Source of the DNA: a virus | Reading direction: 5' to 3' (one strand) | Virus record (IMG/VR): IMGVR_UViG_3300043436_001183 | Location: 1 to 39,519 of that record | Length of the DNA: 39,519 nt | Shown here: one piece after another, positions 5,101 through 18,865 of the stretch | Numbering within the stretch: the first letter of the stretch is position 1 | How the letters are laid out: each line of letters starts with the position of its first letter | Translations under genes and position numbers: made by a program | The notes under the pieces: generated by a model | Database searches by the model: none | The model's input: the letters and a program-made list of their open reading frames with translations, nothing else | Told to the model about the DNA's origin: nothing

Positions 5101-7308
5101 ATGCCCTACGGCGATGACATTAGTGAGGGCTTACCATTAACCCTTTCCAATCCAGCAGGTGCTACATACACTCCTAGTGGTTATGCCTATGATGTAGCTA
5201 TTGCAGGTCTACCATTCTTCATCTCACCCCTTGACGACCAACCATATCGTCGTGTGACGGCGCAGTATCGTAAGCAACAGATTGACCAGTCACGTGAACC
5301 AGGTGAGCAGACGCTTACCGGTTGGTGGTTACGCTCTCAATCATCATTCCACTTTGGACAAGGCATCAAGTTCTTTGAGCCTATCCAAGAAGAGTCACTA
5401 CGCTTCCAGTACACAGAGTCCAAGGGACTCAACGTGTGGGAGAAGGGTCAAGCGACCCTACTTAAAGATAGCGATAATGTACACACAGTTACTGGTGGTA
5501 TCAGAACTGATGGTCGTCCTTGGCAAATCGCTAGATCTATCCAGTGGACTACTAGCAGCAATCTCTATAACGGTATTCTATTGGTGGATGAGTTTGATGT
5601 GGATAAGATATTCCCACAGATCACTGTATCTATTACCAACAAGGCACTGACATCTAACGTGGCAACGCTGACTACATCAGCTGCACACGGCCTATCTATA
5701 GGTATGCAGATCGTCATCACTGGGGTAGATGCTACCTTCAATGGTGAGTATCGAATTACTACAGTGCCTACTACAACCACCTTTACCTATGCTAAGACAG
5801 CAACCAACGTACCATCTGCTGCGGTGTCACCAGCAGGTACAGGCACGGCAGAAGTTATCCACTTCGTTGATTACATATCTGGTACTGATTATCCGGTACA
5901 CGCAATCTGTGATGATGGAGTCTATGCCTACTGGGTAACTAACGTGCTTAACTCTGGCACTCCTAGACTCAGAGTCTACAAGAAGTTGCTATCTGATGAT
6001 AGCTCTGTATCACCTACCTTAATGTTTAGCAACAATGGCATTACCGTAGAAAACGCTGTAATGGAATACACCAAAGAGCGTATCGTTATGTGTGTCAACG
6101 ATAAGGTCTACGAGTTTTCTTCAACAGCTAGCGCAATGCCTACTGCTGTCTATACCCACAATGATCCTGACCACGTCTTTACTAGCATTACCTCATCAGG
6201 TGCTGCAATCTATGTAGCAGGCTATGCCGGTATCCAGTCCAATATCTATAAGTTCACACTCAATACATCAGGTGTAATGCCTACCTTGACCAGTGCTATT
6301 ACAGCAGCTGAACTACCAGTAGGTGAAAGAACGTACAAGATCTCGTACTACTTAGGCTATATGATTATTGGCACTAGCCAAGGTATGCGTGTAGCACAGG
6401 TATCTGATACCGACGGGTCCATCCAATATGGTCCACTATTATTTGAGTCAACACAGCCAGTCTATGACTTTGCCTTCCGTGATAAGTATATCTGGGCAGC
6501 AACTGGAGTAGATGGACAAGTTGGCGTTACGCGTATCAACCTTGGACAAGATCTAGGCACCTTGATATTTCCTTATGCCTGGGATCTCTACGATCCAGAT
6601 GACACATTAGGTCACTACACAACCACCTGTGCTTTTATGGGAGAAACCAATCGCCTTGCTTATGTCAATGCTGGCAACGGTGCAGATGGTGCTATCTACA
6701 TAGAGTCAGCATCCACACTGCTACCTAGTGGCTATCTACAAACAGGCTTTATTCGGTACAACACACTTGAGAAGAAGATCTTCAAGCAGCTTCAGGCTCG
6801 TATAGATACGACCAATGGTGCTCTCAATATGTATTCAATTACATCAACTGGTGTTGAAGCTAACATCGGTACCTTTGCACAAGGTGATGATGTACCTGAG
6901 GTTAACATTGCTTATCCAAATACCTCACAAGAGTATCTAGGATTTAAGTTTACTCTTAGTCGTTCATCTACAGATAGTACCAAGGGGCCACTGTTTACTG
7001 GCTACCAAGTTAAGTCACTACCTGCTATCCCACGTCAGCGATTGATTCAGTATCCATTGATGTGCTTTGACCACGAGAGAGATAGATTTAATAACGAGGT
7101 AGGTTCAGATGGCTCTGCCTATGATCGTATCTCACAGATAGAAGGTGTCGAGAACGTAGGCGACACAATTAGAATTGAAGATTTCCGTACAGGTGAGTCT
7201 TATATCGGACTCATTGAAGAGATGGATTTCATCAACCGCACCCCACCATCAACCCGCTTTAGTGGGTTCGGTGGTGTCCTTCTAGTAACTATCCGGAGCG
7301 TATCGTGA
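5101..7308 (+). CDS. Large tail protein with a predicted beta-propeller-like core
   Basis: A 735-aa virion protein. Residues ~180-250 form an Ig-like phage module (TSNVATLTTSAAHGLSIGMQ, then FNGEYRITTVPTTTTFTY). Residues ~260-540 carry repeated beta-strand blocks of propeller style (AIYVAGYAGIQSNIYKF, YIWAATGVDGQVGVTRI). The C-terminal ~190 residues (from RYNTLEKKIFKQLQ) resemble a distal tail or nozzle domain. It is the largest tail gene in the window and sits just before the lysis cassette. No tape-measure gene is seen, so it may form the short tail's hub or spike. The stop overlaps the start of the next gene. Confidence 0.6.
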   Translation: MPYGDDISEGLPLTLSNPAGATYTPSGYAYDVAIAGLPFFISPLDDQPYRRVTAQYRKQQIDQSREPGEQTLTGWWLRSQSSFHFGQGIKFFEPIQEESLRFQYTESKGLNVWEKGQATLLKDSDNVHTVTGGIRTDGRPWQIARSIQWTTSSNLYNGILLVDEFDVDKIFPQITVSITNKALTSNVATLTTSAAHGLSIGMQIVITGVDATFNGEYRITTVPTTTTFTYAKTATNVPSAAVSPAGTGTAEVIHFVDYISGTDYPVHAICDDGVYAYWVTNVLNSGTPRLRVYKKLLSDDSSVSPTLMFSNNGITVENAVMEYTKERIVMCVNDKVYEFSSTASAMPTAVYTHNDPDHVFTSITSSGAAIYVAGYAGIQSNIYKFTLNTSGVMPTLTSAITAAELPVGERTYKISYYLGYMIIGTSQGMRVAQVSDTDGSIQYGPLLFESTQPVYDFAFRDKYIWAATGVDGQVGVTRINLGQDLGTLIFPYAWDLYDPDDTLGHYTTTCAFMGETNRLAYVNAGNGADGAIYIESASTLLPSGYLQTGFIRYNTLEKKIFKQLQARIDTTNGALNMYSITSTGVEANIGTFAQGDDVPEVNIAYPNTSQEYLGFKFTLSRSSTDSTKGPLFTGYQVKSLPAIPRQRLIQYPLMCFDHERDRFNNEVGSDGSAYDRISQIEGVENVGDTIRIEDFRTGESYIGLIEEMDFINRTPPSTRFSGFGGVLLVTIRSVS

Positions 7309-7502
7309 CCGCACAAGACTATGCAACAGTTGCTGTTTCCGTATGTACCATCGTTGGTGGATTTGCTACAGCAGTACGCTGGTTGGTTAAGCACTATCTC
7401 AATGAACTCAAGCCTAACTCTGGCAGTTCACTCAAGGATTCAGTCACCCGTTTAGAAGAGAAGGTAGAGATCCTCTACCAGATTCTTATACAGAAAAGGT
7501 AA
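7305..7502 (+). CDS. Small membrane protein, possible holin
   Basis: A 65-aa protein with one predicted transmembrane helix near the N-terminus (residues ~8-28, VAVSVCTIVGGFATAVRWLV). A soluble tail ending in a short coiled coil (DSVTRLEEKVEILYQIL) follows. Its position immediately before the endolysin fits a holin or holin-accessory role. It starts with GTG inside the end of the preceding gene (GTGA overlap). The other candidate holin is the gene at 7955-8149, and sequence alone cannot say which forms the lesion. Confidence 0.55.
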   Translation: MTAQDYATVAVSVCTIVGGFATAVRWLVKHYLNELKPNSGSSLKDSVTRLEEKVEILYQILIQKR

Positions 7503-7505
7503 ACA

Positions 7506-7958
7506 ATGATTCCATTAGCCAAGAGAGCAACACCTGCTGCTATCGCAGCTCTGCGTCAAGCAACTGCACACTTTCCTAAGCGAAAGAAAGCATCAGATGG
7601 ACTACTACCTAGTGCAGCACACGTACATCAGAACCCTAACTCAGACCACAACTCAGGCTTTGCTGTAGATATTACGCACGATCCAGTAAGAGGCGTTGAC
7701 TGTGCATTTGCTTTCATTAAACTGCAATCAGATCCACGTGTGAAGTACTTGATATTCAAGGGCAAGATCTGGTCTATCAAGAATGGCAATAAAGATTACA
7801 CTGGTAGCAACCCACACAATAAGCACCTACATATTTCGATCAAGGAAGAGTGCGGTAACGACACTTCGCCTTGGTTCCCTTGGCTGCCCCAGCCAAAGGC
7901 TATCAACAAAGTAAAGGCAGTAGTTAAGCCTCTACCTAAGAAGAAAGAGAATAAATGA
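7506..7958 (+). CDS. Endolysin, M15-type zinc peptidase (D-Ala-D-Ala carboxypeptidase-like fold)
   Basis: A 150-aa lysis enzyme predicted to cleave peptide cross-links of peptidoglycan. The zinc-binding motif of the VanY/M15 family is visible: H48 and D55 in SDHNSGFAVDITHD, and the C-terminal H-x-H in HLHIS (H107 and H109). The C-terminal ~20 residues are a basic tail (KAVVKPLPKKKENK), perhaps for wall attraction. There is no signal peptide, so release would depend on a holin. It lies between two small membrane proteins and overlaps the second by 4 bases. Substrate specificity cannot be deduced. Confidence 0.8.
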   Translation: MIPLAKRATPAAIAALRQATAHFPKRKKASDGLLPSAAHVHQNPNSDHNSGFAVDITHDPVRGVDCAFAFIKLQSDPRVKYLIFKGKIWSIKNGNKDYTGSNPHNKHLHISIKEECGNDTSPWFPWLPQPKAINKVKAVVKPLPKKKENK

Positions 7959-8149
7959 AAATCAATCCGAAAGTAAAAGCAATACTCGCAACATATCTTC
8001 GTGCAGGAGTAGCGTCAGTAATCGCGCTATACCTTGCAGGAGTTACAGATCCAAAGGCTTTAGCAACAGCAGGTATTGCTGCTATTGCAGGTCCATTGCT
8101 CAAGGCATTAGACCCAAAGGCCGCAGAGTTTGGTCGTGGTGCTAAGTAA
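7955..8149 (+). CDS. Holin-like small membrane protein
   Basis: A 64-aa protein with a hydrophobic Ala/Ile/Leu-rich helix at residues ~13-30 and a second weaker one at ~33-50 (ALATAGIAAIAGPLLKAL), a short basic N-terminus and a C-terminal KAAEFGRGAK tail. This is typical of actinophage holins, which control the timing of lysis. The ATG overlaps the endolysin stop. It is the last gene before the intrinsic terminator at 8173-8210, so it closes the late rightward transcript. Confidence 0.65.
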   Translation: MKINPKVKAILATYLRAGVASVIALYLAGVTDPKALATAGIAAIAGPLLKALDPKAAEFGRGAK

Positions 8150-8925: not shown

Positions 8926-9351
8926 ATGACCAAGTGGCGCAACTGTAAACGGTGTGAAACTAAACGTCCCATCGAGGACTTCTACAAACACAGCCAATAT
9001 AAAGACGGGCGTATGTCGTGGTGTAAATTTTGCCACAATGATAAAGTTAGGGATACATACGACCCAGAGAAAAGAAAGAACTACCACCTAAAGCACTTAT
9101 ATGGGATTACCCTTGAAGACTACAATGAAAAGCTGGAGAGACAGGGTGGTGGATGTGCCATCTGTGGTATTAAAATTCCAGGTGGAAACGGAAAACATTT
9201 TTACGTAGATCATAACCACACCACTGGGCAGGTTAGAGATCTACTATGTCATAACTGTAATTTTGTTATTGGTTATGCAAAGGAAGACATTGAGATCCTT
9301 CGAGCAGTTGCTCGATACCTAGACGTTTGGAGCGGGCCATCACAACTTTAG
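8926..9351 (+). CDS. HNH endonuclease, recombination endonuclease VII-like (second copy)
   Basis: A 141-aa protein colinear with the one at 74-508: Cys pairs at 7/10, 33/36, 77/80 and 108/111 and the catalytic DHNH at 95-98. Expected to bind zinc and cleave branched DNA or a homing site. There is no ribosome-binding site; TATACT lies six bases upstream of the ATG, so it is probably translated from a leaderless message. Its end overlaps the TTG start of the proteasome-like gene by 25 bases. It is the first gene of the rightward replication block, so it may be a recent insertion at a module border. Confidence 0.85.
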   Translation: MTKWRNCKRCETKRPIEDFYKHSQYKDGRMSWCKFCHNDKVRDTYDPEKRKNYHLKHLYGITLEDYNEKLERQGGGCAICGIKIPGGNGKHFYVDHNHTTGQVRDLLCHNCNFVIGYAKEDIEILRAVARYLDVWSGPSQL

Positions 9352-9893
9352 TTGGAATCCAAGGACCTGACTTCGTTGTGATGGCAGCTGACTCACAGAT
9401 CACCGATAACGATCAACGCATCATATCTACTGCAACGCCCAAGATTATTCACATCGGGAACTACCTACTAGGTATCACGGGTGACTCACGACCAGGAGAT
9501 ATCCTCGCCTATAATTGGAAACCACCCACATACAAAGGTTACGATCCGGTGGAGTGGATGGGTAAGAGAATCTTGCCTAGTATCTTTGCTGCCTTTAAGG
9601 ATAATGGGTACGATCCATCCGACAAAGAGTCGAGCTACGCCTACCTCATAGCCTTTGATGGGATGTTATTTTCTATCGGATCAGATCTATCATTCAACGC
9701 CAGCGAACGAGGACTATTCTCGGCAGGTAGTGGTGGGGCATTTGCTCTAGGCTACCTCTACTCACTCAAGCCTGGATCGTATAAGTCTTTGTTGATGTCT
9801 AAGGTTGTGGCAGAGCGAGCAATAAAGATCGCGTCGGTGCTTGACGTAAACACCTGTCCTCCGATTCAATTAGTTACTCAACAGAAAGGATGA
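9327..9893 (+). CDS. Proteasome beta-subunit/HslV-like Ntn hydrolase
   Basis: A 188-aa homologue of the self-activating N-terminal-nucleophile peptidases. Removing five residues (MERAI) would expose TTLVGIQG, with Thr6 as Thr1. Asp22 sits exactly at mature position 17 (VVMAADSQIT), and Lys39 in PKIIHIG fits Lys33 with a one-residue insertion. GITG follows as in the family. SAGSGGAFALGYL fits the Ser129 loop, and Asp173 with Thr176 near the C-terminus fits Asp166/169. Its length is close to HslV (~175 aa mature) and below most 20S beta subunits. The start must be TTG because the next Met would delete Thr1; no clear ribosome-binding site precedes it. The substrate and any ATPase partner are unknown. 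Confidence 0.8.
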   Translation: MERAITTLVGIQGPDFVVMAADSQITDNDQRIISTATPKIIHIGNYLLGITGDSRPGDILAYNWKPPTYKGYDPVEWMGKRILPSIFAAFKDNGYDPSDKESSYAYLIAFDGMLFSIGSDLSFNASERGLFSAGSGGAFALGYLYSLKPGSYKSLLMSKVVAERAIKIASVLDVNTCPPIQLVTQQKG

Positions 9894-11499: not shown

Positions 11500-11766
11500 A
11501 TGAGGGAGCCAGCAAAGTACGAGGCTCCGTTATGTGCAAGTGTAGGTGGAGATTTCTGGTTTCCTGAAAAGGAATCCGGAGGTTCCAATAGTACCGAAAT
11601 GGTTATGGCTAAATCTATTTGTAGAAGATGCCCACATCAAGCAGAGTGTGCTGAGTGGGGAATACAGAATGAAAGTCACGGCATTTGGGGAGGCATCACT
11701 GAGGGTGAACGCAGGTTCATCCGACGTCAACGAAAGATAACAATCAAGGAGGAACGAATTGCTTGA
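11500..11766 (+). CDS. WhiB-family iron-sulfur transcriptional regulator
   Basis: An 88-aa protein with all WhiB hallmarks: four cluster-binding cysteines C12, C41, C44 and C50 (LC, then CRRCPHQAEC), the GIWGG turn at 61-65 and a basic C-terminal segment (RRFIRRQRK) for DNA contact. WhiB proteins bind region 4 of the housekeeping sigma factor and change promoter choice; phage versions are known to interfere with host WhiB genes. The ATG at 11500 lies one base after the preceding stop. The family is confined to Actinobacteria and their phages, so it is the strongest host indicator here. Confidence 0.92.
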   Translation: MREPAKYEAPLCASVGGDFWFPEKESGGSNSTEMVMAKSICRRCPHQAECAEWGIQNESHGIWGGITEGERRFIRRQRKITIKEERIA

Positions 11767-13447: not shown

Positions 13448-13596
13448 TCTGCGAATCTTGCCTTAAAGCAGGTGAAGAGAACTCACTTAACCACGTCAAG
13501 CGTGCCACACACTGGCACGAGAAGTGCAGAGGATGTGAATGCCAGCACAAGACTGGGCAAGGATACGTAAGAACAAGCGTTACAAAGGCGACCTAG
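13444..13596 (+). CDS. 50-aa zinc-finger-like protein
   Basis: The motif CESC at residues 3-6, a central RATHWHEKCRGCECQHK and a basic C-terminus form a plausible C2-C2/H zinc site. Its last 58 bases overlap the start of the primase zinc-domain gene at 13539 in another frame. The ATG overlaps the preceding stop. It may assist the primase or bind DNA; that is inference from location. Confidence 0.5.
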   Translation: MICESCLKAGEENSLNHVKRATHWHEKCRGCECQHKTGQGYVRTSVTKAT

Positions 13597-13916
13597 ACGC
13601 TACTGCTGTACCCATAGGAGCAATCATTGCCCACTATGGTGGTGAAGTAAGAGAAGGTAAGGCAGTAGCAGTACGGTGTGCTCTGCACTCTGACTCACGT
13701 AGGTCTGCTGTTATGAACACAGTGGACAATTTATATTTCTGCCATACCTGCGGTAAGGGTGGCAACGCAGTCAGCATTGTCTGCATACTAGAGAACTTGG
13801 AGTTTAAGGATGGCCTCAAACGTGCAGTCGAAATTGCTAAGGGAAGCGGCGCAGCGATACGCACAGGAGGTAAGTCCGGAAGCACTCGTCGTGCTAGCAG
13901 AACGTGGGATATCTGA
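13539..13916 (+). CDS. DNA primase, CHC2 zinc-binding domain (part 1 of a split primase)
   Basis: A 125-aa protein matching the N-terminal zinc domain of DnaG-type primases: C47-x2-H50 in RCALHSD and C68-x2-C71 in YFCHTCGKGG, followed by the helix IVCILENLEFKDGLKRAVEI. This domain recognises the priming site. The catalytic TOPRIM domain lies in the next gene, shifted by +1 and overlapping by 107 bp. The final ~25 residues (GKSGSTRRASRTWDI) look non-conserved. Either the two are separate subunits or a +1 frameshift joins them. The starting ATG lies inside the preceding miniature gene. Confidence 0.8.
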   Translation: MPAQDWARIRKNKRYKGDLDATAVPIGAIIAHYGGEVREGKAVAVRCALHSDSRRSAVMNTVDNLYFCHTCGKGGNAVSIVCILENLEFKDGLKRAVEIAKGSGAAIRTGGKSGSTRRASRTWDI

Positions 13917-14463
13917 AGAGGTAGCAGCACGCTTTCAGCTAGGCACAGTGACAGATCCCATCAATGGTCACGAGATGTATGAGGGATGGATCTCTATTCC
14001 CTACATCACCGCACTTGATATGTGCGTAGGCTACAAGTTTCGTAGGTTAGATGATGCTAAGCCTAAGTATGGCAGTCCAGTAGGGCAGAAGGCTCACCTC
14101 TATAACGTTGAAGATACCCTGTCTATGTCACCACATATTGTGGTCTGCGAAGGTGAGTTAGATACAGTCATTACTAGCGGGGTACTGGGTATCCCAGCAG
14201 TAGGTGTACCAGGAGTGCAGGCGTGGAAGCCACACTTTGCTAAGTTATTTACAGGTTACGACACAGTTTATATCGTAGGTGATAATGACATCAAGGAAGA
14301 TGGCACCAACCCTGGAGCTGAGTTCTCCAAGCGTGTCGCCGGTGAGATAATTAACTCACAAATTGTTACACTACCTCCAGGTATGGACATCAATGACTAC
14401 TACCTAGCACACGGAGCTGATGCTACGCGAGCTTTGCTAGTGGGTGAATCGAAGGGTGAGTAG
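13810..14463 (+). CDS. DNA primase, TOPRIM catalytic domain (part 2 of a split primase)
   Basis: A 217-aa protein beginning with the helix usually found between the zinc and catalytic domains (ALVVLAERGISEEVAARFQL). The RNA-polymerase-like part follows, and then TOPRIM: VVCEGELD (E114) and IVGDNDIKEDG (D158/D160). It ends with MDINDYYLAHGAD, as in DnaG relatives. No helicase-binding domain is present. The ATG at 13810 has only a weak AAGGA upstream. The reading frame is +1 relative to the zinc-domain gene. It is expected to make RNA primers for the phage fork. Confidence 0.8.
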   Translation: MASNVQSKLLREAAQRYAQEVSPEALVVLAERGISEEVAARFQLGTVTDPINGHEMYEGWISIPYITALDMCVGYKFRRLDDAKPKYGSPVGQKAHLYNVEDTLSMSPHIVVCEGELDTVITSGVLGIPAVGVPGVQAWKPHFAKLFTGYDTVYIVGDNDIKEDGTNPGAEFSKRVAGEIINSQIVTLPPGMDINDYYLAHGADATRALLVGESKGE

Positions 14464-15870: not shown

Positions 15871-15956
15871 GTGATGGTTACGTTTTTCTTCTAGGCTATA
15901 TCTTTGGTTCGCTTCTAACTCTTGCCACTATGTGGCTATGGGATAGGTTGAACTAA
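15867..15956 (+). CDS. 29-aa single-pass membrane protein
   Basis: MSDGYVFLLGYIFGSLLTLA begins a single hydrophobic helix that ends MWLWDRLN. It overlaps the preceding stop (ATGA) and its own stop overlaps the next ATG (TAATG). Its size and design are like the membrane proteins at 9890-9985 and 17480-17569. The role is unknown. Confidence 0.5.
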   Translation: MSDGYVFLLGYIFGSLLTLATMWLWDRLN

Positions 15957-16126
15957 TGATCTATGCTTTCAAGTGTGAGTGTGGTAACACACGTGAGATA
16001 GAGCAATCTATCCACGATGACGTCATCAACCCTGTCTGTACTGATTGTTATAGTTCTATGTCTCGTGTTTGGTCATCACCTGGTATCACCTTCAAGGGTG
16101 ACGGGTTCTATTCTACTGGAGGTTGA
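15956..16126 (+). CDS. FmdB-type zinc-ribbon protein
   Basis: A 56-aa zinc ribbon: MIYAFKCECG gives the first Cys pair, VCTDC the second, and it ends SSPGITFKGDGFYSTGG. The FKG-x-GFY ending is diagnostic of the FmdB/CxxC putative regulatory family. Members are usually annotated as regulators without proven function. The TAATG overlap with the membrane gene and the strong GGAGG at its end, which serves the next gene, place it inside the operon. Confidence 0.7.
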   Translation: MIYAFKCECGNTREIEQSIHDDVINPVCTDCYSSMSRVWSSPGITFKGDGFYSTGG

Positions 16127-16127
16127 A

Positions 16128-16703
16128 ATGAGTTACCCTAATTGGTTCAAGCAGATAGCACAGTATAACTTTGAAGAGTTCCTTACCCCACTAGCGGGTA
16201 AGACTGATCTTAATTTCTTACAGCTCGGCGTCTTTACTGGCGATGCTAGCGTATGGTTGTTAGAGAACATACTTACTGGTTCCGGATCTACTCTTATGGA
16301 TATTGATACTTGGGAGGGTGCATCAAATGAACCTATCCAAGAGGAGATGGATTTCAGTGATGTGTTCCACACATACCGAGCAAAGACAGATCACTTTCAT
16401 AACCGATTGTTTAAGCAGATTACTACCTTTGAATATCTTTCCAAGTACAATTATATGAAACAGTATGACTTTATCTATGTTGATGCTCACCACACATCAG
16501 CTTCTGCGTTCCTGGATAGTGAACTATCGTGGCCACTGCTTAGGTCCGGTGGCATACTAGCCATTGATGACTATGAGTGGACTCACCCTGGCGGTAATCC
16601 TATTCACGCACCTAAGTTGGGTATCCATATGTTCTTAGATCGCCACGAGGGAGAGTATAAGTTACTTGCAAAGAACTCCCAAGTGTGGATTAGAAAGCAC
16701 TAA
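16128..16703 (+). CDS. SAM-dependent methyltransferase-like protein
   Basis: A 191-aa Rossmann-like protein. The glycine-motif region is LNFLQLGVFTGDAS, followed by an acidic strand end LMDIDTWEG, the motif-II-like YDFIYVDAHHTSASAFLD and LLRSGGILAIDDYEW. This resembles the class I methyltransferases that modify small molecules or sugars (Methyltransf_24-like). The ATG at 16128 has GGAGG five bases upstream; an in-frame start at 16017 would overlap the zinc-ribbon gene. It is the last gene of the rightward replication block and is followed by a hairpin. The substrate is unknown; phage DNA or a surface glycan are both conceivable. Confidence 0.6.
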   Translation: MSYPNWFKQIAQYNFEEFLTPLAGKTDLNFLQLGVFTGDASVWLLENILTGSGSTLMDIDTWEGASNEPIQEEMDFSDVFHTYRAKTDHFHNRLFKQITTFEYLSKYNYMKQYDFIYVDAHHTSASAFLDSELSWPLLRSGGILAIDDYEWTHPGGNPIHAPKLGIHMFLDRHEGEYKLLAKNSQVWIRKH

Positions 16704-16761: not shown

Positions 16762-16923
16762 TTATTGTAGCAGAGATATTGCTGGATGGCAGGGATCGCC
16801 ACCCTCATCCCACTCAGCTCTCTCTTCCTCAGTCATATAATCGTAGTTGCCATCGTGCGTGGCACAGTAGGGTTGGCTTATCCACCCTCTCTTGATTCCA
16901 AAGAGTAGCCAGTATCTATACAT
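16762..16923 (-). CDS. Small conserved phage protein with a CATHDG motif
   Basis: A 53-aa protein beginning MYRYWLLFGIKRGWISQPYC, then THDGNYDYMTEEE and GGDPCHPAI. The C-x-THDG/GGDPC arrangement recurs in small actinophage proteins of unknown role and could bind a metal. It is the last gene of the leftward operon. Its ATG overlaps the stop of the transglycosylase frame by one base and the stop of the alternative 93-aa frame by eight bases, so it is coupled to whichever of the two is translated. Confidence 0.6.
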   Translation of the reverse strand: MYRYWLLFGIKRGWISQPYCATHDGNYDYMTEEERAEWDEGGDPCHPAISLLQ

Positions 16924-17197
16924 CAGTACCACCCTCTTCGGTCTGAGTGTCGGAGAGCGCTGCACGCGTCTGCTCTATAGCGATGACCAATGTATCGTAT
17001 GCCGTGAAGGATTTGTAGTTCAGGTTCTCGACTGCGCTCTCTAAGGAGTTGAGCAATTCCGAAAGCCGTTGATCGTGGGTTGTCGGCAAAGTGGTCAAGC
17101 CTGCTTTCACGGGTCCATAGGGTGATAAGGCACGCTGTTTGTCTCTTCGTATATCCGAGAGCTCGACTATATTGCTTGATGATTCTTCTGTTCTCAC
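16916..17197 (-). CDS. 93-aa candidate overprinted gene in another frame of the transglycosylase
   Basis: This frame starts with GTG in a GTGA overlap with the 100-aa gene's stop and has GGAGG six bases upstream, the best initiation signal in this stretch. The product is mostly helical (SELLNSLESAVENLNYKSFT, then LVIAIEQTRAALSD) and is of unknown family. Its coding region nearly coincides with the transglycosylase domain, which has clear homology. Both may be real (overprinting), or this one may be an accident that happens to use codons of the other. The start signals are seen; translation is inference. Confidence 0.4.
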   Translation of the reverse strand: MRTEESSSNIVELSDIRRDKQRALSPYGPVKAGLTTLPTTHDQRLSELLNSLESAVENLNYKSFTAYDTLVIAIEQTRAALSDTQTEEGGTDV

Positions 17198-17345
17198 GCT
17201 TTTCCTCCATTGTAGCCTTCGTCCTGGCCACCGCTGGCTTCTTCTCTATCTCCACGTGTATGTGGACTGGTGGAGTCGGTATAAATACCATCAACAAACT
17301 CAGTGTTACCATCAATATCAAGCCACTTCTTACCCAGTTGTTCAT
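16923..17345 (-). CDS. Lytic transglycosylase, SLT/lysozyme-like, with membrane anchor
   Basis: A 140-aa protein. Residues ~7-23 form a transmembrane or signal-anchor helix (SGLILMVTLSLLMVFIP). The catalytic domain follows at ~60-140: the glutamate is E80 in TLWTRESRLDHFADNP, and STAFGIAQLL, ILHGIRYIGHRY and a terminal RRGWY match the actinobacterial SLT pattern closely. It would cut glycan strands of peptidoglycan. The gene overlaps the 100-aa gene upstream by 152 bp and fully covers the last 275 bp of another frame with good start signals. A shorter start at 17210 would remove the membrane segment. Lying in the leftward block, it may act early, away from the lysis cassette. Confidence 0.65.
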   Translation of the reverse strand: MNNWVRSGLILMVTLSLLMVFIPTPPVHIHVEIEKKPAVARTKATMEEKRENRRIIKQYSRALGYTKRQTACLITLWTRESRLDHFADNPRSTAFGIAQLLRERSREPELQILHGIRYIGHRYRADACSALRHSDRRGWY

Positions 17346-17496
17346 CTACAATTTTCTCCTGTTCGAGTAGTTCCTTGTATGTCTCAGGGTAGGCATTGGA
17401 TAGGCGTGTCATAGCCCTATCCCTGGCTCTCCTATAGTTGCGATAGCCCACCGCATTACGCTTGGCAGTCTCTATCCTTCTAGCGATCTCCGTCAT
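17194..17496 (-). CDS. Conserved helical protein of the leftward operon
   Basis: A 100-aa protein. Residues 1-55 (KRNAVGYRNYRRARDRAMTR, then YPETYKELLEQEKIVDEQLG) are a helical region of a type common in actinophages, with unknown function. The remaining ~45 residues are low-complexity and acidic, and coincide with the stretch where the transglycosylase frame overlaps, as expected when one of two overlapping genes is less constrained. The ATG is preceded by GGAGGAGAAGG. It overlaps the tiny membrane gene upstream by 17 bases. Confidence 0.65.
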   Translation of the reverse strand: MTEIARRIETAKRNAVGYRNYRRARDRAMTRLSNAYPETYKELLEQEKIVDEQLGKKWLDIDGNTEFVDGIYTDSTSPHTRGDREEASGGQDEGYNGGKA

Positions 17497-18372: not shown

Positions 18373-18594
18373 CTAGTCCTCCCACTTATGCGTGTTACGG
18401 TAGGCGTTGTAGAGATCTAGGATATCTTTGATAATCTCTAGGCACTCTTCATCCGTCCACTCCTCGCCATCTACCCCTCCTACTTGGGTAACTAGCTCTA
18501 GTGTCGGTCCATCAAGAGCGTCCATCTCCTCAATATAGGCGTTAAAGCTAGCCGTACTATCTATGATCTCTAGTATCTCTCTCTTACTTAGCAT
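18373..18594 (-). CDS. Hypothetical 73-aa acidic protein
   Basis: Starts MLSKREILEIIDSTASFNAY and ends with a helix (ECLEIIKDILDLYNAYRNTH). Most of the charge is negative. AGAGAGAGGG lies six bases before the ATG at 18594. A longer in-frame version exists up to 18807, but that part coincides with the upstream genes and is low in complexity, so the short form is preferred. Function unknown. Confidence 0.6.
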   Translation of the reverse strand: MLSKREILEIIDSTASFNAYIEEMDALDGPTLELVTQVGGVDGEEWTDEECLEIIKDILDLYNAYRNTHKWED

Positions 18595-18752
18595 TACTCT
18601 CCCTCTCTCTCGTGTAGGTATCCACCCATAGTGGAGATTAGATTGGTGCGTATAACTATCCCGCCCTCGCCCTCTTCCACCGTAGCTCCCGCCATATTCT
18701 CTCCCACCCATACCTTTAGATCTTGCAAGGTATCTATCTCTTCTAATTGCAT
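18594..18752 (-). CDS. Hypothetical 52-aa protein
   Basis: MQLEEIDTLQDLKVWVGENM is followed by EEGEGGIVIRTNLIST. The GGIVIRTNL strand is typical of small actinophage proteins from early regions. TAATG overlaps on both sides chain it to its neighbours, and GGAGAGAGG lies before the start. No function is known. Confidence 0.58.
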   Translation of the reverse strand: MQLEEIDTLQDLKVWVGENMAGATVEEGEGGIVIRTNLISTMGGYLHEREGE

Positions 18753-18865
18753 TACTTATCCTCTCTCCAGTTATTATGTTGAGTCTGCAACGCGTAATGC
18801 TCTGCACACTCTAGGCATAGCTCGACCTCTTGCGCCTTATCACAATAGTTCACACACTTATCCAT
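18752..18865 (-). CDS. 37-aa two-CxxC-like miniature protein
   Basis: MDKCVNYCDKAQEVELCLEC has cysteines at 4, 8, 17 and 20, followed by AEHYALQTQ and a charged end. Four cysteines in 17 residues suggest a minimal zinc knuckle. It starts six bases after the AGAGAGAGGGC tract and is the first gene after the clamp's 3' spacer. Function unknown. Confidence 0.55.
   Translation of the reverse strand: MDKCVNYCDKAQEVELCLECAEHYALQTQHNNWREDK

Follow-up and report, generated by a model that had tools for sequence, protein, structure and literature searches.

The analysed stretch of DNA, referred to as the window, comprises the 39,519 nucleotides of the IMG/VR virus record IMGVR_UViG_3300043436_001183. 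Its minus strand carries a nest of three ORFs, termed TG, O93 and O100, that occupy three different frames (Table 1). Codons 1-50 of O100 are single-coding, the 3' half overlies the N-terminus of TG, and the O100 stop overlaps the O93 start. TG is covered end to end, by O100 over 17345-17194 (its first ~50 codons, 152 nt) and by O93 over 17197-16923 (about 275 nt), and no private coding bases are left in it. The order GGAGG-AAAAGC-GTGA is seen before O93. The stop codons of TG (TGA, 16925-16923) and O93 (TAG, 16918-16916) both lie against the ATG of the next ORF at 16923, as an earlier sequence-only reading of this DNA had described; this downstream ORF has no family match in Pfam or PHROG. 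The same reading held that three minus-strand frames are all open here, which is accurate for a brief stretch near 17194, where O100 ends and the O93 frame opens ~48 nt upstream; over the rest of the nest only two frames are open. The low complexity that it noted in the 100-aa frame where TG is overlapped can be seen in the C-terminal half of O100, as judged by eye. Promoter and terminator scans gave chance-level results only. We also note a 52-aa ORF (18594-18752, minus strand) that lies wholly within a 144-aa ORF (18373-18807, minus strand) in another frame, with ATG/GTG starts; the pair is possibly another overlap in the operon of TG.

Table 1. Positions in the window of the nest, its start signals and the putative lysis genes.
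Feature	Position	Strand	Description
TG	17345-16923	-	140 aa, ATG start; putative exported membrane-anchored SLT/lysozyme-like transglycosylase
O93	17197-16916	-	93 aa, GTG start; +1 frame relative to TG
O100	17496-17194	-	100 aa, ATG start; upstream gene
GTGA, O93 start/O100 stop overlap	17197-17194	-	inside TG codons R50-E51; 4 nt read in three frames
GGAGG, Shine-Dalgarno of O93	17204..17208	-	written in TG codons M46-E47-E48
AGGAG, Shine-Dalgarno-like site of TG	17353..17357 (approximate to a few bases)	-	inside O100
Downstream 53-aa ORF	16762..16923	-	ATG overlaps TG stop (TGATG), just before O93 stop codon
Putative lysis cassette	7305-8149	+	65-aa and 64-aa small hydrophobic holin-like ORFs around a 150-aa ORF; structural half

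TG matches the PHROG families phrog_12661 and phrog_35836, both 'transglycosylase' (E 1e-10 and 2e-8), and scores 43.9 bits against NCBIfam NF052397, for which the cut-off is 40. Among 42 members of the TG family, Pfam SLT is found in 10 (at E<=0.01) and Phage_lysozyme2 in 16; the Pfam match of the window's own TG falls under the curated cut-off. The best VIA-align rows of the AlphaFold model (mean pLDDT 80) are phi29 gp13 tail lysozyme, MltF and MltE, with middling Z values of 5.1-6.7. A Foldseek search of the model against the PDB returned nothing with E<=0.001, and the fold claim therefore rests on the VIA-align rows and the family profiles; a PDB sequence search with TG gave no match. The residues E80-S81, G96-I97, Q99, C72 and C128 are invariant in the 42 members, which come from both clades discussed below, and E80-S81 would represent the catalytic-type Glu in an ES motif. 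TG further carries a GIAQ motif and an N-terminal hydrophobic segment, the latter present in all sampled relatives. The SLT homology proposed earlier for this frame is supported by NF052397, the PHROG transglycosylase families, the invariant E80-S81 and GIAQ. TG is predicted to be an exported, membrane-anchored SLT/goose-type-lysozyme-like transglycosylase, with the activity predicted by family and by fold resemblance at middling Z.

Relatives were taken from IMG/VR by a scan with TG as query (best 80 of 138 relatives used), a scan with O93 as query (best 80 of 85 relatives used), and a profile scan for O93 (best 80 of 568 matches used). The two query sets, less duplicates and with the window included, amount to 114 distinct sequences. 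The O93 frame is open in register in all 114, so that the frequent stops looked for as a refutation were not encountered among these carriers. O93 ends between -2 and +82 nt from the TG stop, the two lowest values (L097 and L153) being contig ends. TG is present in 80/80 of the best of the 568 profile matches, two of them short merely through lying at a contig end. The relatives are not independent: clustering at 85% nt identity gives about 17-18 groups. The GGAGG and GTGA-coupled start recognised earlier in the window belong to a conserved junction: the 4-nt overlap of O93 start and O100 stop occurs in 110/110 testable relatives (106 GTGA, 4 ATGA), preceded by GGAGG in 94 and by some purine-rich Shine-Dalgarno sequence in 109 of the 110. 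For TG, an ATG with a Shine-Dalgarno-like site was found in 70/70 relatives tested; the O100 frame is open across the TG start in the same proportion (70 of 70 tested), for which the chance is 7% per sequence with TG fixed.

An open frame of this kind may arise without a protein gene, either by chance through the composition of TG or with translation that is merely regulatory, coupled ribosome traffic serving to tune TG. With the TG protein held fixed and its synonymous codons drawn anew according to codon usage in the window's genes, 3.1% of draws left the O93 frame open, with 2.9 stops on average; in the relatives it is open in 110/110. A redraw with the overlap's own codon usage, which already carries O93 signal, left the frame open in 19% of draws; the +1 frame is thus rather easily open given the composition of TG. 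The variability of the N-terminal 20 residues of O93 among relatives also favours this explanation. Selection on the frame argues against it. Overlap-aware counting in disjoint close pairs of carriers gave dN/dS of 0.21 for O93 (95% CI 0.16-0.26) and 0.09-0.10 for TG (95% CI 0.06-0.13). The control was a sister clade of TG genes (43 distinct sequences), in which the virtual O93 frame has 1-7 stops (mean 4.1) and a dN/dS of 1.23, with 0.13 for TG, values that rest on only 5 doubly synonymous changes (85-99.5% bin). Individual dN/dS values are rough because doubly synonymous sites are few, above all in the sister clade.

The synonymous-site constraint for which an alignment of relatives had been suggested was found. 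At 70-75% amino acid identity, the differences at four-fold sites of TG are 0.257 in carriers versus 0.517 in the sister clade, i.e. about half. Within the same carrier pairs, the value for TG is 0.21 versus 0.59 in the single-coding part of O100. In addition, L45, L48, L52, E53, V56, L59, S63, F64 and Y67 of O93 are about 100% conserved, whereas TG alone predicts 28-55%; at E53, S63 and Y67, conservation of TG is no higher than about 70%. A purely regulatory O93 would need the open frame alone and not conserved residues. In view of the universal opening of the frame in the 110 relatives, its dN/dS, the excess conservation at specific helix residues and the behaviour of the same frame in the sister clade, a non-protein O93 is considered highly improbable. 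Comparison of the sequences shows both TG and O93 to be under purifying selection as predicted proteins. The O100/TG overlap also displays constraint in both frames; with only 2 doubly synonymous changes its ratio is not firm.

Neither O93 nor O100 has a family match in Pfam, PHROG or NCBIfam, and a search with O100 gave no match. The members of the O93 family produce weak, scattered PHROG matches (best E 5e-4) to families without annotated function. A PDB sequence search with O93 yielded chance-level helix matches only, and a search of genome_contigs returned 71 pattern matches and 0 relatives. The AlphaFold model of O93 has a mean pLDDT of 68 and is confident over the helix only: residues 1-38 are predicted to be disordered and residues 39-87 to form one ~49-residue helix with pLDDT of about 90. 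The most conserved positions (45, 48, 52, 56, 59, 63, 67, 70, ..., 81) follow a 3-4-4 spacing, suggestive of a helix that is amphipathic or forms a hendecad coiled coil. Neither a signal nor a membrane segment is obvious in O93. The protein is probably soluble and helical, perhaps forms oligomers, probably has an accessory role, and putatively represents a new protein family. Residues 1-22 occur in two types, MRTEESSSNIVELSDI.. and MRTRHLSLVTQEHSVT.., which pair with the TG types ENRRIIKQ/ENKALIVS; this pairing suggests possible recombination at the start of the overlap.

The predicted export of the catalytic domain would suit a TG that acts as the main endolysin of the phage, and the obligate linkage with TG that O93 shows at every locus seen would suit an O93 that serves as its dedicated regulator, either inhibitor or chaperone. 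The location of the genes points elsewhere. An M15-like peptidase ORF stands apart from TG in the plus-strand structural half, accompanied by two small holin-like ORFs, and TG lies in a minus-strand operon together with a sliding-clamp-like gene. The 150-aa ORF of that cassette (7506-7958, plus strand; phrog_32486) shows the M15-peptidase-like motif SDHNSGFAVD...HNKHLH; the M15 and holin calls are both motif readings, confirmed by no family model. As for a regulatory O93, a protein in which no signal or membrane segment is obvious would not come into contact with the exported domain of TG. We regard the endolysin and regulator pairing as unlikely. Since an M15-type peptidase with holin-like neighbours stands elsewhere, TG probably cuts peptidoglycan in an accessory capacity and is probably not the main endolysin.

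The sister clade contains Planktophila phage LanE43-AprF5 (OX376641), which was cultured on 'Ca. Planktophila' (PMC10202952). The TG of this phage is 38% identical to that of the window and has the same membrane anchor and partly shared neighbours (a zinc-ribbon ORF upstream; FmdB-like, sigma-70 and other ORFs downstream). In contrast to the window, LanE43-AprF5 lacks O93 and O100, and its TG stands alone at the locus, with no overlap over its body, and starts after whiB with a 4-nt overlap. This TG as query retrieved 53 loci, and its clade is made up of the ~46 nearest to it. At the site of the O93 start these sequences read AAG-AAA/CGG-GC(C/T)-AAC/AAT, with no GTG. In the TG tree, carriers form one clade (100/95) that is sister to the LanE43-AprF5 clade (99/94); the TGs of Streptomyces phages and others branch outside the two.

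The sequence-only reading had left the direction open, with the enzyme either arising over an older gene or being covered by one. Overprinting stands, and an older gene beneath TG does not. What speaks for an older O93 is that its helix core is conserved as much as TG, or more, at several columns. On the other side, TG belongs to a family of wide distribution, whose members in the sister clade and in Streptomyces phages are without O93, whereas O93 was seen nowhere without TG. The O93 profile search of genomes was positive for 6/6 carriers and 0/16 non-carriers, and tblastn with O93 in 50,697 phage records found no match. In the reverse redraw, with O93 fixed, a random TG frame is open in only about 0.02% of draws. 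Codon usage likewise favours TG as the older gene, TG being nearer to the genome than O93 in 110/110 (rank correlation 0.38 vs -0.05). It is therefore most improbable that TG arose over O93. Given the tree, the distribution and the codon usage, TG came first and O93 was overprinted on it, and very probably the nest is a genuine same-strand TG/O93 dual-coding overprint, as judged from the sequences. The earlier suggestion of a true dual-coding nest accords with the open frame and start in all testable relatives, the O93 dN/dS of ~0.2 against ~1.2 for the sister-clade frame, and the halved synonymous divergence of TG.

Examination of the 93-aa frame in phages with a diverged TG, as had been proposed, separates the fully open carriers (110/110) from the interrupted sister clade, and does not extend to the Streptomyces camvirus TGs, whose +1 frame has zero stops. 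These camvirus frames and that of one further locus, L212, were considered as relics of O93 and rejected: there was no match in phage records and none in the profile search of L212. The camvirus +1 frame is presumably open through high G+C.

Immediately upstream of TG, the sister-clade records examined carry whiB, which in carriers is located elsewhere (11527-11715 in the window). WhiB is the marker of actinophages (PMC10202952), and the window virus is a WhiB-encoding freshwater actinophage. The nest occurs in a large group of lake viruses whose hosts are actinobacteria.

The comparison shows the following course of events. An old TG gene acquired O93 in its +1 frame in the ancestor of one clade, and the 3' end of O100 came to cover the TG start. 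O100 may have been able to extend into TG through the loss or relocation of whiB. By standard termination-reinitiation biology, O93 would be made by ribosomes that terminate on O100 at its TGA and restart on the GTG overlapping it, downstream of GGAGG, and TG would be started independently at its own AGGAG...ATG inside O100. Ribosomes on O100 and O93 would cross the start and body of TG and compete with its translation, so that the output of TG would probably be held low. The steps of translation interference and function are much less sure than the overprint, and we place them between doubtful and about even. More tentatively still, the tiling of TG by two coupled genes might be a control device that caps the dose of a membrane-anchored wall-cutting enzyme, with O93 born when O100 ran into TG after whiB had left, making a stop/restart junction behind a purine-rich run of TG codons.

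Several overprinted gene pairs invite comparison. In the Rz/Rz1 spanin pair of the tailed phage lambda, too, a short gene with start signals of its own is embedded in a cell-envelope gene and read in a different frame. Rz and Rz1 both yield envelope proteins, whereas O93 has no obvious targeting segment, and here two genes jointly cover all of TG. The D/E and A/B pairs of phiX174 are likewise long same-strand phage overprints with independent starts; they reside in a tiny ssDNA genome, in contrast to the ~40 kb dsDNA actinophage considered here, in which the older gene is an enzyme. Tombusvirus p22/p19 (PMC11044054) are also a protein pair from nested genes in different frames, but of an RNA plant virus and with a known function for p19. 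Among dsDNA viruses, +1 pairs overlap by a median of 14 nt (PMC8903798), and long same-strand overlaps such as those of about 275 nt and 152 nt are unusual. The overprint is thus known in kind, and its geometry is unusual for a dsDNA tailed phage. No earlier description of the nest was found in the open-access literature. Few such cases offer a clear direction together with carriers that number in the hundreds and have diverged, and with a closely related clade of non-carriers from which a phage has been cultured; this makes the nest a natural experiment on the birth of a protein inside an enzyme gene and on the sharing of one sequence by two proteins. In these abundant freshwater phages, annotation restricted to one frame per locus will overlook one gene of the conserved pair.

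Other genes of the window show overlaps or start choices of their own on the plus strand. An HslV/proteasome-like peptidase gene with a TTG start (9327-9893; PF00227, phrog_1040) overlaps the end of the endonuclease VII gene. Two ORFs in different frames at 13539-14463, one Zn-ribbon and one Toprim, share ~107 nt and apparently represent a split primase. At 15956-16703, the start listed for a methyltransferase ORF falls within an FmdB-like zinc-ribbon ORF; the methyltransferase probably begins further down.
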